Assembly: GCA_030529085.1 (NCBI GenBank)
Contig: JAUMXM010000019.1
Location: 1 to 35,093, forward strand
Source of the DNA: Rikenellaceae bacterium
Lineage (GTDB): Bacteria > Bacteroidota > Bacteroidia > Bacteroidales > Rikenellaceae
Direction of reading: 5' to 3'
DNA: 35,093 nucleotides
In this document: positions 19,304-25,390 of the stretch, piece by piece
Numbering within the stretch: the stretch's first letter is position 1
How the letters are laid out: each line of letters opens with the position of its first letter
Notes under the pieces: generated by a model
Told to the model about the DNA's origin: nothing
The model's input: the letters and a program-made list of their open reading frames with translations, nothing else
The model's database searches: none
Position numbers and translations under genes: made by a program

Positions 19304-19415
19304 GATTTTATGCGGCATATTTTGTACCTCCTCGCCGTGCAAAACAGTCACATACCTGAAGTATGCTCCTATCTTGCCCGACTTCGGTCGGTCCAAAATC
19401 TGCTCGCCTAAAATC
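19304..19415. repeat. Structured dispersed repeat, copy 1
   Basis: The 112-bp element has ~25-bp inverted arms (19304-19328 against 19390-19415, only a few mismatches and one bulge). Inside are hairpin CATAC-ctgaa-GTATG (19351-19365) and CCGAC-ttcg-GTCGG (19378-19391), a UUCG-tetraloop stem when read on the plus strand. A second copy is at 25262-25372. It sits just upstream of the rnz start and downstream of trxB, next to a 10-bp array. Function unknown. Confidence 0.8.
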
Positions 19416-19429
19416 AAAAATGGGTTGTT

Positions 19430-19564: not shown

Positions 19565-20485
19565 TTACTTTCGCAGGAAGCGCTCGCAATCCAGCGCGGC
19601 CATACAGCCCGAGCCGGCGGCGGCGATTGCCTGGCGGTAGTGGGGATCCTTCACATCACCGGCGGCAAAGACGCCCTCGACCGAGGTCTTCGACGTGCCC
19701 GGCTCCACGCGGATATAACCCTCCTCGTCGAGCTCCAGCTGACCCTCGAAGAGATCCGTGTTGGGGTGGTGGCCGATGGCCAGGAAGAAGCCTGCCACAT
19801 CCAGCACGCGCTCCGTGCCATCCGTTTTGCGCACCTTCACGCCCGTTACGCCCATCTCGTCACCCAGCACCTCGGCTGTGTTGTGCTCGAAGAGCACCTC
19901 GATATTCGGCGTATCGAATACGCGCTGCTGCATCGCCTGCGAGGCGCGCAGGAAGGGCTTGCGAACAATCATGTAGACCTGACGGCAGAGAGATGCGAGG
20001 TAGGTAGCCTCCTCGCAGGCCGTGTCACCGCCACCCACGACGGCTACGTCGCGCTTGCGGTAGAAGAAGCCGTCGCACGTCGCGCAGGCGCTCACACCTT
20101 GGCCGCGGAACTTCAGCTCCGACTCCAGACCCAGGTACTTTGCCGAGGCGCCCGTGGCGATGATCAGGCTCTCGGCCTCGATCTCCACGCCACCCTCGGC
20201 CTCCACGCGGAAGGGGCGTGCGCTCAAATCGACCTTCGTGATGCTGCCTCCGCGCAGCTCGGCGCCTAAGTTCTCGGCCTGCTTGCGCATCGAGGCCATC
20301 AGCTCGTTGGCATCGATGCCCTCGGCATAGCCCGGCCAATTCTCGATCAGGGTCGTCGTCGTCAGCTGTCCGCCCGGCTGGATGCCCTCGTAGAGGACGG
20401 GAGCCATGTTGGCGCGCGAAAGGTAGATGGCCGCCGTGTAACCTGCGGGACCGCTACCGATAATCAAAGTTTTAATCTTCTCCAT
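19565..20485 (-). CDS. trxB: Thioredoxin reductase
   Basis: FAD enzyme passing electrons from NADPH to thioredoxin; cytosolic. It is 306 aa, standard length. FAD-binding GSGPAGYTAAIYLSRA at ~11-26; redox-active CATCDGFF pair at about residues 135-138; NADPH-binding VVGGGDTACEEA; and the C-terminal FAD segment GVFAAGDVKDPHYRQ with AAGSGCMAAL. It is the last gene of the operon after DUF4954, vWA and WG-pseudokinase genes, starting only 14 bases after the pseudokinase stop. That placement is unusual for trxB and links it transcriptionally with the signalling genes. No intrinsic terminator was recognised just downstream. Confidence 0.95.
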   Translation of the reverse strand: MEKIKTLIIGSGPAGYTAAIYLSRANMAPVLYEGIQPGGQLTTTTLIENWPGYAEGIDANELMASMRKQAENLGAELRGGSITKVDLSARPFRVEAEGGVEIEAESLIIATGASAKYLGLESELKFRGQGVSACATCDGFFYRKRDVAVVGGGDTACEEATYLASLCRQVYMIVRKPFLRASQAMQQRVFDTPNIEVLFEHNTAEVLGDEMGVTGVKVRKTDGTERVLDVAGFFLAIGHHPNTDLFEGQLELDEEGYIRVEPGTSKTSVEGVFAAGDVKDPHYRQAIAAAGSGCMAALDCERFLRK

Positions 20486-20499
20486 AGTCTATCTTGTTT

Positions 20500-21456
20500 T
20501 TATATTTCGTAATCGTCTGAAAATTCGCTCACTTGGCGACCGTTGTAGTCAAATTCGGCCCACAGCCCCTCGCTGCGTACCCAGAAGCGGCTCTCCGCCT
20601 CGCGGTATTCGACCACCTCGTAGTGCGGTTCGATGATGTAGCCTCCCGTGCGGTCGATGACGCCCATCTTCTCGCCCTCCTTCACCACGGCGCGCCCCTC
20701 GCGAAAGTCGCCGACCCACGCATAGCGCGGCTCGATGATTATCTCACCTCCCGGGTTGGCAAAGCCGAAACCCGTATCGGTCTCGATGGCAATCAGCCCC
20801 TCGAATTCGTGTCCCTCCCAGCGGCGGTTGCTCACAGCCTCATACTCCTCGTCGCAATCCGAAAGGGTGGGCAGCGTTGTTGCAAAGGAGGCTCGCCATG
20901 TTGCGAAAAAGGCCTCGTCGCGACTTCGGTCTTCGCCCACCGTTGCATGCCAGGGGCGAATAGCTACCAGCTCCTCACCCGTCCAGCGCAGGTTCTCCTC
21001 TTTGAGGTTGTTGTGGGCCACTCGAGCCCTTTTTAGGCTCTCCTCCAGGCGGTCGATGGCGCGCAACTGCTCTGCGTCGTCGAGCTGGGTGAAGCGATCG
21101 GTGAGTGGCTCACCCGGCAGCTCTTGCAACCAGAGGTCGGTGCGGTGATGACCCTCTGCGCGATCCTCCCAGAGCAGCTCCTCGGGCAGCAGTCGGATGC
21201 TCGCCAGGGCGGCAACATGGAGGCGCGTTATCTCCTTGAGGCTCCTCTCGAGGTGGTGTGCGGCCTCCTCATTGAGGGGCATGGCCACCAGAAAGGGCTT
21301 TGTTGCAAGGCGGAGCTCCGCCTCCGCCGTGTAGGAGGTGCGTTGCAGGGCCGGATTTCCGTCGATGCGCAGCAGCGGCTCGCAGGCGGTGAGCTCCCGC
21401 AAATAGATCTCAGGCATTAGCAGGGCTCGAGTGAAATGGTGGATGGGGAGTGCCAT
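20500..21456 (-). CDS. Degenerate protein kinase (pseudokinase) with WG-type repeats
   Basis: 318 aa, no signal peptide. Residues ~1-200 match the kinase-like protein at 24104-25252 in order and spacing: a shared N-terminal pattern, then AHNNLKEENLRW where the other has AHGDLKPENILV, and VAIRPW where the other has HLIDRD. The catalytic Asp is thus Asn150 and the DFG-type Asp is Arg167, while Lys152 and Asn155 are kept; no phosphotransfer is expected. Residues ~229-318 form WG-like beta repeats (GFGFANPGGEIIIEPRYAWV, GDFREGRAVVKEGEKMGVI, GGYIIEPHYEVV). Its ATG is 4 bases after the vWA stop. Likely a regulatory or scaffold partner of the vWA protein or the intact kinase; that role is inference. 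Confidence 0.75.
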   Translation of the reverse strand: MALPIHHFTRALLMPEIYLRELTACEPLLRIDGNPALQRTSYTAEAELRLATKPFLVAMPLNEEAAHHLERSLKEITRLHVAALASIRLLPEELLWEDRAEGHHRTDLWLQELPGEPLTDRFTQLDDAEQLRAIDRLEESLKRARVAHNNLKEENLRWTGEELVAIRPWHATVGEDRSRDEAFFATWRASFATTLPTLSDCDEEYEAVSNRRWEGHEFEGLIAIETDTGFGFANPGGEIIIEPRYAWVGDFREGRAVVKEGEKMGVIDRTGGYIIEPHYEVVEYREAESRFWVRSEGLWAEFDYNGRQVSEFSDDYEI

Positions 21457-21460
21457 TTTT

Positions 21461-22315
21461 TTATCCGGTTTTTATGCTGATGGAACCTATGTTGAGCATC
21501 GTGACCAACTCCGAAATCGAGGTGTTGAAACCCATGCCGCGGTAGGGCGGTAGTCCGTAGCCCCCTTTGGCGGTGTGAATGGCCTCTGTAAAGCAGTCGG
21601 GAAGCTCGCTCGACAGGTCGTAGAGCAGGCGTGCGCGCCCCTCCAGGGCGGCTCCCTCCTCTTCGTTGGGCAGGAAGGTGTGCGAACTTAGTGCGTGGCC
21701 GATGTGGATATTCATCAATAACACATTGCCATCCTCGGTGTGGAGTTGGCGGATTTGGCTCGCCACGCTTCGCAGCTCCTCAACGGTGCCATCCGTGGCA
21801 TCTCCGTCGGTGATGTTGAAGACAATGGGCGGAAAACTGGTGCGATGCTCTTCGCGAGCAATCCAGAGGGCCAGCTCATCACGTGCTGTGCGCAATGCTT
21901 CGACCATCGGGGTGAGTCCGCAGGCGGTGGGTTTCACCCAGGTGGGGATCTCTACTTGTCGCAGGGCCGGTTCGCCGTTGGGCAGTGTGACGTCGATCGT
22001 GCGCTTCATCCGTTCAACGGGGAGTGCAGCCAGCTCCTCGATCGAGATCAATTTGAGACCATTGGGGAGCAGGGAGCGCACTGCTTCGTCGCCCGAATAG
22101 CTCCAGATGGCCACATCGTAGTAGTCGCGGATGCCGTCCGTGCGCCGTGCACGCTCGATCAGTTCGAAGATCAGCTCGTTGGTGACCGTCGCAAGCGCTT
22201 GGGCTTTCGAGCATATCACGCCACGAAACGGAATCTCCTCGGCCATCGAGCCGGAACCGTCGATCAGCAGGAAGAAGGCTGTGCGGTGTGCGCGTGTGAT
22301 GCTTTGGCGATACAT
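21461..22315 (-). CDS. TerY-like von Willebrand factor A domain protein
   Basis: 284 aa, cytosolic by sequence (no signal or membrane segment). The vWA fold covers almost the whole protein. The metal-binding MIDAS is complete: DGSGS at residues 19-23, Thr135 in ACGLTPM, and Asp170 in NITDGDATDG. LLIDGSGSMAEEIPF and LTPMVEALRTARDEL resemble the TerY group found with kinases and phosphatases in stress-response modules. It lies 18 bases after DUF4954 and 4 bases before the pseudokinase-WG gene, so co-expression is near certain. A likely role is metal-dependent binding of a partner under kinase control; the partner is unknown. No PP2C phosphatase, usual in TerY-P triads, is in the window. Confidence 0.85.
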   Translation of the reverse strand: MYRQSITRAHRTAFFLLIDGSGSMAEEIPFRGVICSKAQALATVTNELIFELIERARRTDGIRDYYDVAIWSYSGDEAVRSLLPNGLKLISIEELAALPVERMKRTIDVTLPNGEPALRQVEIPTWVKPTACGLTPMVEALRTARDELALWIAREEHRTSFPPIVFNITDGDATDGTVEELRSVASQIRQLHTEDGNVLLMNIHIGHALSSHTFLPNEEEGAALEGRARLLYDLSSELPDCFTEAIHTAKGGYGLPPYRGMGFNTSISELVTMLNIGSISIKTG

Positions 22316-22333
22316 AATATCCTTGCTTGAGGG

Positions 22334-24055
22334 TTAGTTCAGGCCACGCACCGAGCGGTAGTCGGCCAGGCGATCCTCCATCGTGTCGCAATCCAAACCG
22401 TAGCTCACGGCCATGTCGGCACCGCAGTCGCGCATGCGATCCGTGTCGGTCATGCGGCGGAAGGCCTCGCGGGCATTCTTGCCGCTCTCGATAGCCTCCT
22501 CGATCTCCTCGATGGTGGGCATGTGACCCAAAAGCGAGGCGTAGATCTGCTCGGCCCAGCTGTGGGCGTAGTCATCGTAGTGGACGGCAAAGACGCGGAA
22601 GGCGTTGTCGATCGACTTCAGGTCGCCGAGTGCTCCCTCTTCGATTTGCTCCACGATGCGGTCCACCGCGCGTTTGGTGATGTATTGACCGGCGATGTCG
22701 AGCCAGCGACCGCCGCCGTTGTAGCGTTCGGTCGAGCCTCCGCGCTCGAGCATGGCGCCCAGCGAGGCGACAATGGCGCGGTTGTAGAGCGTGATGCCAC
22801 GCTGCAGGGCGGCGGCACGAATCTGAACACGGTTGTAGTTATAGACGGGGCTGTCGGGATTCATCTCCTCGATCGTGTGGAGCATATCCACGGCGCGCAC
22901 CATCGAGCCGGTGGTGTAGGGGTTGTGCTCCTCGAACGAGATTACGTCGCGCATCACCTTGCGCTTGTCGCGCTTGGGCCACTTTTCGATGTCGCGCACC
23001 GTGCCGTAGCTGGTCAGGTTGACCGCCGGCAAGAGGAACGAGCGATCCTCCTTCTCCAGCAGGTAGGAGTAGGGGAAGACCGAGGTATCGTGGTGGCGCG
23101 AGTGGTGACCCATGACCATCGTGAAGGCTCCCTCGAGGGCCGGTGCCATGATGTAGGCACCGCTGGCGAACTTGCAGCCACGCGGGTGAACCGCCTGGTG
23201 CACTGCGCCGCTTTTGAAGAGGTGGTTGCTCTGGTTCGAGCCGCTGCCGGCGTTGAAGAAGGAGAACATACCCGCAATCAGGAGCGAGGATTTGTGGTGC
23301 GAAACGGTATAGGGGCCTGCGAAGATGGCGGCGGCTTCGCCGTTCTCACAGTGGGTATTGGCAAAGAATAGCGACTCGGCGGCCGTGAAGCCCTTGTCCA
23401 GAATCGAGCTTTCGCCCACGAAGCAACGCTCAAGGGTCACGCCGTTGTTGATGCGGGCCCCCTCGGCGATGATGAAGTCGTAGGCCTTGACATCGACGCC
23501 GAGCGCGCTGTCGTCGAGCACCGTGCCATTGACGAGGGCCGACGATCCGTCGATCTTCACGCGGTTGCCGATCTTCACCTCGCGCAGGAAACGGGCACCC
23601 GAGAGGTGACACTCCTCGCCCACGGTGCCGATCGTGTCGCGCTCGGCCTCGGCTTCGGCCTCCACGATGCGCTCTAAGGCGGCGATGAGCTGCGGGCGGT
23701 GGCGATAGATGGCCATCAGGTAGGCTGCCTGGGCGCTCATCGAGGCGCAAATCTTCACCGTGCGTCCCTCGCATTCGTTCATCGTGGCCACCTTCACACC
23801 GTTGCCAAACGAGGAGCTCTCGCGGCATTGCAGGGCGGTAATCTGTTCAATCAGGGTGTTGCGACCGATGCGGTAGTTTTCCACATAGGAGCGTATGATG
23901 CGGGCCCCGCTATCCAGCTCCACACGACCGCCGAGACGGCTTTGGCGCAGCTGTTCGGGGTGGAAGTCCTCCGAGACATATATCTTTGACCAATCTTCGG
24001 CAGCCGTGCCCAGACGCTCGACAGCCTCGATCTCCGAGTGGGTCAGGTTTCTCAT
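22334..24055 (-). CDS. DUF4954-family protein with hexapeptide (left-handed beta-helix) region
   Basis: 573 aa, no signal peptide. Two stretches have the short-period pattern of hexapeptide beta-helices: ~35-115 (GARIIRSYVENYRIGRNTLI, SSFGNGVKV) and ~145-235 (IGTVGEECHLSGARFLREV, IGNRVKIDGSSALVNGTVL, GARINNGVTLERCFVGE). A His/Asn-rich central part (SHHKSSLLIAGMFSFFNAG, NQSNHLFKSGAVHQA, MGHHSRHHDTSVFP) may bind a ligand or metal. The C-terminal ~150 residues are helical. This matches the DUF4954 family of Bacteroidota; relatives resemble sugar-nucleotide acyl- or nucleotidyltransferases, but the activity is unknown to me. Its promoter overlaps the end of the kinase gene, and it heads the vWA-pseudokinase-trxB operon. 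Confidence 0.8.
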   Translation of the reverse strand: MRNLTHSEIEAVERLGTAAEDWSKIYVSEDFHPEQLRQSRLGGRVELDSGARIIRSYVENYRIGRNTLIEQITALQCRESSSFGNGVKVATMNECEGRTVKICASMSAQAAYLMAIYRHRPQLIAALERIVEAEAEAERDTIGTVGEECHLSGARFLREVKIGNRVKIDGSSALVNGTVLDDSALGVDVKAYDFIIAEGARINNGVTLERCFVGESSILDKGFTAAESLFFANTHCENGEAAAIFAGPYTVSHHKSSLLIAGMFSFFNAGSGSNQSNHLFKSGAVHQAVHPRGCKFASGAYIMAPALEGAFTMVMGHHSRHHDTSVFPYSYLLEKEDRSFLLPAVNLTSYGTVRDIEKWPKRDKRKVMRDVISFEEHNPYTTGSMVRAVDMLHTIEEMNPDSPVYNYNRVQIRAAALQRGITLYNRAIVASLGAMLERGGSTERYNGGGRWLDIAGQYITKRAVDRIVEQIEEGALGDLKSIDNAFRVFAVHYDDYAHSWAEQIYASLLGHMPTIEEIEEAIESGKNAREAFRRMTDTDRMRDCGADMAVSYGLDCDTMEDRLADYRSVRGLN

Positions 24056-24084
24056 ACAGATGCAATTGGAAACTATTTAACTCG

Positions 24085-24115
24085 CAAATATAATTATTTG
24101 GAATTAAATATCAAA
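24085..24115 (-). promoter_or_regulatory. Promoter of the DUF4954-vWA-pseudokinase-trxB operon
   Basis: Minus-strand TATATTTG (24092-24085) with TTTTG (24115-24111 region) after 19 bp: a strong consensus match. Its upstream half overlaps the last codons of the kinase gene, so the operon can be transcribed independently of the kinase. Confidence 0.7.
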
Positions 24116-25252
24116 ACGCTTGCCGCAGATGTTGATTTTACAGAGCCCGCTTTTCGTTTCAAGACGGGCAAAACCATTCCGAAACGAGCCTACCCACAGG
24201 CAGGGTGGGCAGTGTAGAACGATCTTGCCGCGACGGTCGATGAAGTGCCAATGGGAGCCGATTTTTACGGCGGCAACCCCTTCGCTGAAGTCGTGACCGT
24301 CGGTGTAGATGGGCGGAATTACGACTCCGCTTTCGGTGCGAAATCCCCACCAACCGGCCTCGCCGTAGAGTTCCGGCAGAGGGCTCTCTGTGGGGATGTT
24401 GATACCCTCATTGAGCAGGGTGAAAAAATGCTCGATATCGGGAATTGCGGGGAGGGTGTTGTGGAGCAGGTGGGCAACTCGATAGCGCAGGGCAGCACCC
24501 TCGCGGGCAAAGCAGCACTTGATGGCTGCGAGTGCCGGGCAAGATTCCGTGTTGCCTGCATCGATGAGTAACCCCTCTTTTTGGTCGAATTTCCGGTAGA
24601 GATCCGGCTCGATGGCCAGGGCTGCCAATACGGTTGAAATCAGCACAATCGGGAAGTCGTCGATCGTGCGGTTGAAATCCTCGCTCGTGCGGCGCGGATG
24701 TTGGAAGGCCGCCGTTCCCAGCTCGGGCGAGGGACGACCTGCAAAGGCGGGGAGAAAGAGCGCATCGCGGTCGATCAGATGCAATTCGTCGTCCTCGCCG
24801 ACAAGGATGTTTTCGGGTTTGAGATCGCCGTGAGCCCATTCGGCGCGAAGAAGCGTAAGAGCCAGACGGTCAAATTTTTGCGAGAGACGCTCGAGGGTCG
24901 TCCGATCCCCGGCTGTAGCGGCACGGCGGATTCGCTCTTCGAGCGTTTCTCCTGCAATCCAATCCAGCAATACAACGTCGACCCACTCGCCCTGCTTGGG
25001 CGTTTTGTAGAGGAAAAGTTCGCGCTCCAGAAGCCTCTCTTCATAGCGTTCTCGGAGGTTGCGTCGGGGGTGAAAATAGCAACGCAACGCCTTCTCTCGT
25101 CCCGCATGGCGGATGCGGAAGGTGATGGCTGCATTGCCCACCGAGTAGTGGGGACGACCCTCCCTGTCGCGACAGAGCTCCACCTCGCCCAACGTGCGGG
25201 TCAGGCAGAAGCTGTCAGTGAGTGAGAAGAGGTATTGTTGAAGCGTGTACAT
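24104..25252 (-). CDS. Ser/Thr protein kinase-like protein with C-terminal WG repeats
   Basis: 382 aa, soluble. A compact bacterial kinase fold covers ~20-270: SVGNAAITFRI near the nucleotide loop, ALRCYF at the beta-3 position with Arg57 where Lys is usual, catalytic-loop AHGDLKPENIL with Asp143, Lys145 and Asn148, and HLIDRD with Asp161 in the DFG position. ELGTAAFQHPRRTSEDF resembles an activation/P+1 segment. Residues ~298-382 are WG-like beta repeats (GWWGFRTESGVVIPPIYTDG, HDFSEGVAAVKIGSHWHFI). The metal-binding and catalytic residues suggest an active enzyme despite Arg57, which I recall as common in related Bacteroidota kinases. Directly upstream is a structured repeat rather than a recognisable promoter. 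Probably functions with the vWA and pseudokinase proteins next door. Confidence 0.8.
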   Translation of the reverse strand: MYTLQQYLFSLTDSFCLTRTLGEVELCRDREGRPHYSVGNAAITFRIRHAGREKALRCYFHPRRNLRERYEERLLERELFLYKTPKQGEWVDVVLLDWIAGETLEERIRRAATAGDRTTLERLSQKFDRLALTLLRAEWAHGDLKPENILVGEDDELHLIDRDALFLPAFAGRPSPELGTAAFQHPRRTSEDFNRTIDDFPIVLISTVLAALAIEPDLYRKFDQKEGLLIDAGNTESCPALAAIKCCFAREGAALRYRVAHLLHNTLPAIPDIEHFFTLLNEGINIPTESPLPELYGEAGWWGFRTESGVVIPPIYTDGHDFSEGVAAVKIGSHWHFIDRRGKIVLHCPPCLWVGSFRNGFARLETKSGLCKINICGKRFDI

Positions 25253-25261
25253 CGTTTTGTA

Positions 25262-25372
25262 TTTGTATGCGGCATATTTTGCACCTTCTCGCCGTGCGAA
25301 ATAGTCACATACGCTGAGTGTGCTCCTTTCTCGCCCGACTTCGGTCGGCGCAAAATCTGCTCGCCTAAAATC
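25262..25372. repeat. Structured dispersed repeat, copy 2
   Basis: This second copy of the element at 19304-19415 has the same orientation. It keeps the inner hairpins: CATAC-gctga-GTGTG at 25308-25322, where a U-A pair has become U-G, and CCGAC-ttcg-GTCGG at 25335-25348 unchanged. The inner half of the outer stem (GCATATTTTGCACC / GGCGCAAAATCTGC) is kept. The element ends about 10 bases from the kinase start codon and is followed on the other side by a 10-bp array. Confidence 0.8.
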
Positions 25373-25390
25373 CGAAATTTTTGGGGGAGG

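Follow-up and report, generated by a model that had tools for sequence, protein, structure and literature searches.

Bacterial TerY-P modules, whose founding paper is reportedly that of Anantharaman et al. from 2012, include TerY, a protein of the von Willebrand factor type A (vWA) class. TerY-type vWA proteins go together with kinases and phosphatases, and what the vWA protein itself contributes has, to our knowledge, not been tested so far. Here, we describe a relative of these modules on the minus strand of a 35,093-nucleotide stretch of DNA (the window; contig JAUMXM010000019.1 of assembly GCA_030529085.1, positions 1 to 35,093) from a Rikenellaceae bacterium, the source genome being 1.9 Mb in size and 85% complete. 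The unit, called the triad below, consists of three genes that encode a Ser/Thr-type kinase (KIN), a TerY-type vWA protein, and a putative pseudokinase (PSK) paralogous to KIN.

As defined in the available portions of the literature, TerY-P combines the vWA protein TerY, a PP2C phosphatase, and a Ser/Thr kinase fused to an OB-fold or a zinc ribbon, the OB-fold form being a defence system (PMC11090510); protection against phages is reported for TerY-P (PMC7699616, PMC10889362). Like TerY-P, the triad joins a TerY vWA protein that has a metal ion-dependent adhesion site (MIDAS) with a same-branch kinase in one gene unit. In contrast to TerY-P, the triad has PSK instead of PP2C, its kinase gene lies upstream rather than downstream of the vWA gene, KIN and PSK of the window bear WG repeats where the defence kinases bear an OB-fold or zinc ribbon, and the unit is near-universal in one family. 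The prophage-borne kinase-kinase-phosphatase (KKP) module, which is also antiphage (PMC11341870), resembles the triad in having two kinase-fold proteins in a three-gene unit. Nevertheless, no vWA protein is named in the available parts of that paper, and the two kinases plus phosphatase of KKP are not found in the triad, where PP2C gives no match and the second kinase lacks the catalytic Asp. A review of bacterial Ser/Thr pseudokinases names in its headings the families ActPs1-3, GLW, CP1, DYD, and DLHK (PMC12599244). As far as the available text goes, these bacterial families share with PSK their conservation, their impaired catalysis, and the lack of an assigned function, and the words Willebrand, vWA, Bacteroid, and TerY are absent from the main text of the review. 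Among the literature matches listed, which take in few subscription papers and several sources in part, no pseudokinase in a TerY module is described; those on WG repeats held nothing useful.

The relation to TerY-P had been proposed in a sequence-only reading of the window, and it is borne out by profile matches: the PADLOC model TerY matches 20 of 20 vWA rows, and STK_OB matches 22 of 22 kinase domains. Thus, a TerY-like vWA protein with a MIDAS and a Ser/Thr kinase of the TerY-P branch are both present. Sequence profiles found no OB-fold or zinc ribbon at the C-terminus of KIN; a WG repeat stands there, and the STK_OB match of the window's KIN stops at profile position 240 of 562. The same reading had noted the absence of a phosphatase, which now extends to the family. 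The TerY-P PP2C model PDLC02222 has no match in any of 150 Rikenellaceae genomes sampled from a larger group (its 14 built-in controls were silent as well), against six of six outgroup genomes, out of 12 that carry the vWA gene, in which it detects a gene directly downstream of TerY. That place is occupied by PSK in the triad. Since a TerY-like vWA protein and a same-branch kinase occur without PP2C and with PSK in its place, the locus is, at the level of sequence, a TerY-P variant without detectable PP2C that is near-universal in one family.

The six outgroup phosphatases differ in strength. Five are from other classes (G469, G645, G661, G685, and G496) and one, with a weaker match (1.2e-8), is from the same class (G713); STK_OB kinases are seen at four outgroup loci. 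The G713 locus (L210, 5376-10072) combines a gene for a kinase that has nine WG repeats with, in divergent orientation, a TerY vWA gene that is followed by the weak PP2C gene, and is a possible evolutionary intermediate. Elsewhere in the genomes, the search for phosphatase and Ter genes that had been recommended gave a divided answer for the former and, with TerD, a negative one for the latter. PF13672 is absent from the window's own genome (G000), while PP2C_2 proteins of another type occur in seven of 37 genomes of the genus, none of the seven matching the TerY-P PP2C model. TerD (PF02342), taken as the marker of a Ter system, was not found in any of 61 genomes searched, the window's own included (controls were positive in two of 14). 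As a side observation, G003, G027, and G036 (L220, L221, and L222) encode, at another site of the genome, a PP2C_2 protein whose frame measures about 480-530 aa, and these three, together with G028, have the most divergent vWA proteins of the genus.

Gene order around the vWA gene was compared at 73 loci, comprising the window, 33 genus relatives, about one locus for each other genus, and some extras; the sample is non-random, as several extras were picked because KIN was apart or missing. The predicted adjacency of vWA and pseudokinase genes is mostly kept: 63 of the 73 loci have a kinase-fold gene (E up to 0.01) downstream of the vWA gene, scoring at least 50 bits at 57. The other six matches are weak (G331, G356, G358, G343, G344, and G382, the last at 15 bits), and the gap to the vWA gene measures 311 and 328 bases in G356 and G382, respectively. 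The median raw distance between the vWA and PSK genes is three bases when starts are taken from the longest open reading frame (ORF). In G345, the kinase-fold gene is upstream of the vWA gene and PSK-like, and at nine loci there is no adjacent PSK (G005, G006, G027, G028, G036, G003, G341, G461, and G443); the G005 PSK is on another contig, and contig ends truncate the loci of G036 and G443. KIN (>100 bits) is found upstream, within 2.5 kb, at 40 of 73 loci, 39 of which also have the downstream gene, a count that omits G349, where KIN was hidden by ORF choice.

The degeneracy of the second kinase, also noted in the earlier reading, holds throughout the family. In hhalign, the PSK profile can be aligned with that of KIN across 207 columns (E value in Table 1), and by this homology PSK has a predicted kinase fold. 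The catalytic Asp is gone from all 55 scoreable PSK proteins (of 67), its position being taken by Asn in 41, Ala in four, Gly in three, His in three, Arg in two, and Ser in two. Fifty PSK proteins retain the His of the H-x-D motif, and 44 retain the loop Asn. The DFG column is unaligned in 51 of 67, the other 16 having six Asn, five Arg, three Asp, and two Gly; the KIN domain exceeds that of PSK by about 70 residues, and the PSK domain aligns poorly past the DFG region. As sorting KIN and PSK by profile could favour this result, a count by position was made as well: the H-x-D Asp is present in 39 of 39 scoreable upstream kinases (of 40, chosen at >100 bits) and in none of 54 scoreable downstream proteins (of 63). 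Outgroup kinases, which are downstream of their vWA gene in six of seven cases, were left out of this count, and the sole upstream gene without the Asp is the PSK-like gene of G345. Judged from these residues, PSK is a pseudokinase whose catalytic loss has been retained over evolution.

In a tree of 52 kinase domains, PSK falls on one side of a branch with support 99/95, found in 99% of bootstrap trees. The tree holds 20 KIN, 25 PSK, and seven outgroup domains, taking every second KIN >200 bits and PSK >150 bits, so that the weakest-scoring PSK are omitted. Four of the PSK rows stand out as very long, no branch of the drawn tree sets KIN apart, and the root is not fixed; thus, a single origin of PSK is consistent with the tree and not proved by it. 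From the tree and the distribution together, we infer that a single duplication or split gave rise to PSK near the family's root and that PSK has been dead since. Against the Protein Data Bank, the PSK profile places ROP5 in the first row, weakly, over 55 positions, and hardly ahead of ordinary kinases.

KIN, by contrast with PSK, keeps its catalytic residues: the catalytic Asp, the catalytic-loop Asn, and the DFG-type Asp are present in 61 of 61 scoreable kinases (62 examined), and the HGD and IDxD motifs are likewise retained in all 61. This invariance argues for selection for catalysis. It bears on an alternative in which the system signals without phosphotransfer, both kinase-fold proteins being ligand-sensing scaffolds and KIN decaying in the window's clade. 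In favour of this idea, the beta3 Lys is replaced by Arg in 16 of the 61 kinases, namely those of the window, of 14 loci in its part of the genus (L035-L043, L206-L208, L224, and L232), and of G005 (L055), and this substitution makes the activity of the window's KIN uncertain. Given the invariance of the other residues, we consider signalling without phosphotransfer quite unlikely. On the vWA side, the MIDAS residues D19, S21, S23, T135, and D170, described as intact in the window, are indeed all present there and at 68 of the 73 loci in total. Pfam has no match to the vWA protein at E 0.1, and no solved structure matches its profile at 0.01; for KIN, the best 60 of 525 structure rows are general kinases. 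WG repeats exceed the Pfam cut-off in both KIN and PSK of the window and were found in eight of ten further KIN or PSK proteins scanned. Kinase-domain alignments were used in this work because whole-protein searches with KIN or PSK draw in other WG-repeat proteins.

In the window, the three genes are part of a row of five on the minus strand, with a DUF4954 gene between KIN and the vWA gene and trxB after PSK. The row itself, its ORFs, and the gaps of 18, 4, and 14 bases among the last four genes are as first described, and KIN is 48 bases from the DUF4954 gene. The shared promoter proposed for the genes after KIN is equally well supported. It matches TTTG-N19-TAnnTTTG exactly, which we take to be the Bacteroidota promoter consensus, and TTTG-N18-22-TAnnTTTG has four matches in the window against 0.15 expected. 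A TAnnTTTG box (-7) recurs about 100 bases or less before the first gene after KIN at 26 of 27 loci scanned, and at 22 of the 27 a suitably spaced TTTG or TTG stands upstream of the box; the gene in question is DUF4954, or the vWA gene where DUF4954 is absent, with starts inferred from tblastn. The box precedes PSK at none of the 27 loci and trxB at one, and trxB is possibly read from the promoter in the window.

Small gaps, one promoter, and the position of trxB next to the locus in many members of the genus, without its own such promoter at 26 of 27 loci, are what favours a five-gene, redox-linked module in which DUF4954 and TrxB would be working parts, as the sequence-only reading had it. 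The comparison with relatives does not sustain this proposal. The vWA gene is found in 34 of 37 genomes of the genus, the window's own included, and in stretches fetched from these genomes many near the window have the order FKBP-KIN-DUF4954-vWA-PSK-trxB-rnz. Nevertheless, six have FKBP-KIN-vWA-PSK with no DUF4954 between (G001, G013, G014, G015, G030, and G032); trxB-rnz follows in five, and in G015 the contig stops inside PSK. A different DUF4954 gene lies at another site of G014. Conversely, G007 and G008 have FKBP-DUF4954-trxB-rnz without any triad gene, and tblastn found no triad remnant at these sites. A scar in G374 (L223, 7488-8027) retains the first 113 residues of KIN between FKBP and trxB-rnz; vWA, PSK, and DUF4954 are all missing there. 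DUF4954-trxB-rnz is apart from vWA-PSK in G016 and G021, and KIN is apart from both. In other genera of the family, the fetched surroundings of the triad contain no DUF4954, trxB, or rnz.

Thus, the triad and DUF4954-trxB-rnz come and go separately, and DUF4954 and trxB were rejected as parts of the module. The true unit is KIN, the TerY-type vWA protein, and PSK, with KIN mobile and DUF4954 and trxB as neighbours that have their own history. As TrxB (Pfam Pyr_redox_2, NCBIfam TIGR01292) matches an ordinary thioredoxin reductase, the redox link rests on adjacency, and we regard the five-gene redox module as very improbable. Long open frames in G011 and G018 hinted at a fusion of vWA and DUF4954, which was rejected, as these frames overlap DUF4954 in another reading frame.

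The vWA profile is found in 135 of the 150 family genomes, in 93 of the 99 that are at least 90% complete (good genomes), and in 22 of 22 genera sampled; for the kinase-domain profile, the figures are 135 of 150, 91 of 99, and 21 of 22. Across the phylum, the vWA gene occurs in 13 of 296 genomes, the window's own counted, and it was not found at 1e-3 in 24 genomes of other families of the same order. The two genes co-occur, as had been anticipated: both are absent from nine of the 150 genomes, against six lacking the vWA gene alone and six lacking KIN alone (Fisher p 2e-7, a value that ignores shared ancestry and the gaps and missing contigs of metagenome-assembled genomes). Among the good genomes, the vWA gene is absent from six of 99, KIN from eight, and both from five. 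A near-universal and mostly single-copy triad points more to a core cell function than to an optional defence cassette.

The latter possibility would make the triad an antiphage TerY-P variant in which PSK holds a toxic kinase in check until infection occurs, the role that the phosphatase has in KKP. The nearest models, STK_OB and TerY, are defence models, and TerY-P with an OB-fold kinase and KKP are antiphage according to the portions available (PMC11090510, PMC7699616, PMC10889362, PMC11341870). Triad losses at the site in several genomes and the fast divergence of its proteins also fit; these proteins exceed TrxB in raw divergence by a factor of 2.1 to 3.0, more than expected for a quiet core function. 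In contrast, the triad, traced by the vWA gene, is present in nearly all good genomes and in every genus sampled, and phage records gave no match at 1e-5. Plasmid records gave two at this threshold, both distant (32-34% identical) and cyanobacterial. The neighbourhood in the window is a housekeeping stretch: an FKBP-type isomerase gene precedes the locus, and trxB, rnz, an rRNA-methylase-like gene, and pdxA follow it. Across much of the genus, the triad sits among the same genes. A defence role is therefore unlikely in our estimate.

We propose instead that the triad, a relative of TerY-P, is a unit for phosphorylation-type signalling in which PSK and the vWA protein may control KIN allosterically, a reading that stands about as good a chance of being right as wrong. 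Kinase-pseudokinase pairs born by duplication often pair with each other, and PSK would pair with KIN and determine, through contact, how active KIN is or which substrates it chooses. The vWA protein would bridge or gate this pair through its MIDAS, and the WG repeats would bind an input ligand or a target. Allostery by a dead kinase would thus take the place of dephosphorylation as the means of control, and DUF4954 and trxB would share the locus with a separate function. In eukaryotes, a dead kinase steers a live one in HER3-EGFR, STRAD-LKB1, and ROP5-ROP18, and HER3 has H-R-N in its loop; the likeness is in mechanism, and homology of the assemblies is not claimed.

Besides the beta3 Arg and the fast divergence described above, several observations weigh against this proposal. 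The mirror-tree partial r is 0.54 for KIN-vWA and 0.66 for vWA-rnz, so that pairs within the triad are not separated from neighbours. In part of the genus, KIN is far from vWA-PSK, and among the good genomes G420, G443, and G461 keep the vWA gene with KIN not found. Twelve of 67 PSK proteins are not scoreable at the catalytic Asp, and of the 63 scoreable at the beta3 position seven have Lys and five Arg. No WG repeats were found in two of the ten further proteins scanned, the PSK of G338 and a stand-alone KIN of G016. Finally, the other-type PP2C_2 proteins of the genus, together with the low score of the G713 phosphatase, make a strongly decayed or in-trans phosphatase still conceivable.

For the origin of the signalling unit, a tentative scenario, somewhat short of an even chance, is that TerY-P was domesticated near the root of the Rikenellaceae: the phosphatase would have been dropped and a once-duplicated dead kinase would have taken over regulation, giving a core kinase-pseudokinase-integrin-like switch. 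A phosphatase-free TerY unit with a dead kinase isolates the kinase-vWA part of TerY systems, and the triad, if the proposal is true, would be a bacterial case of pseudokinase control across a gut family. It is also experimentally accessible, as named isolates carry the vWA gene (Alistipes montrealensis kh20 and Alistipes sp. An66); KIN and PSK are also present in G448 and G022.

Table 1. Features of the triad locus and its neighbours in the window (positions on the forward strand).
Feature	Position	Strand	Details
KIN, Ser/Thr-type kinase with C-terminal WG repeat	24104-25252	-	382 aa; STK_OB 4.9e-30; WG_beta_rep 9.8e-9
KIN catalytic-loop H-G-D, residues 141-143	24824-24832	-	Sequence reading; Asp in 61/61 scoreable kinases
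KIN best WG repeat stretch, residues 310-335	24248-24325	-	Profile match
Bacteroidota-type promoter match TTTG-N19-TATATTTG	24085-24115	-	Exact match; for genes after KIN
DUF4954/DUF6819 protein	22334-24055	-	573 aa; Pfam; left-handed beta-helix-like matches; non-triad neighbour
TerY-type vWA protein	21461-22315	-	284 aa; PADLOC TerY 9.6e-50; MIDAS intact
vWA MIDAS D-G-S-G-S, residues 19-23	22247-22261	-	
PSK, predicted WG-repeat pseudokinase, KIN paralogue	20500-21456	-	318 aa; profile vs KIN profile E 2.1e-43
PSK H-N-N replacing H-x-D, residues 148-150	21007-21015	-	
PSK best WG repeat stretch, residues 230-263	20668-20769	-	Profile match
trxB, thioredoxin-disulfide reductase	19565-20485	-	306 aa; TIGR01292 2.2e-112; housekeeping neighbour

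An Rfam scan of the window returned nothing at gathering scores. Outside the genes, two copies of a 116-nt intergenic element, 86% identical, are found on the minus strand at 19306-19421 and 25263-25378, just upstream of rnz and of KIN, respectively. Their RNAs fold as a long hairpin (z -10.5 and -4.1), and the element is possibly akin to a miniature inverted-repeat transposable element. Three near relatives (L035-L037) also have a 16-base core of it, located upstream of rnz.

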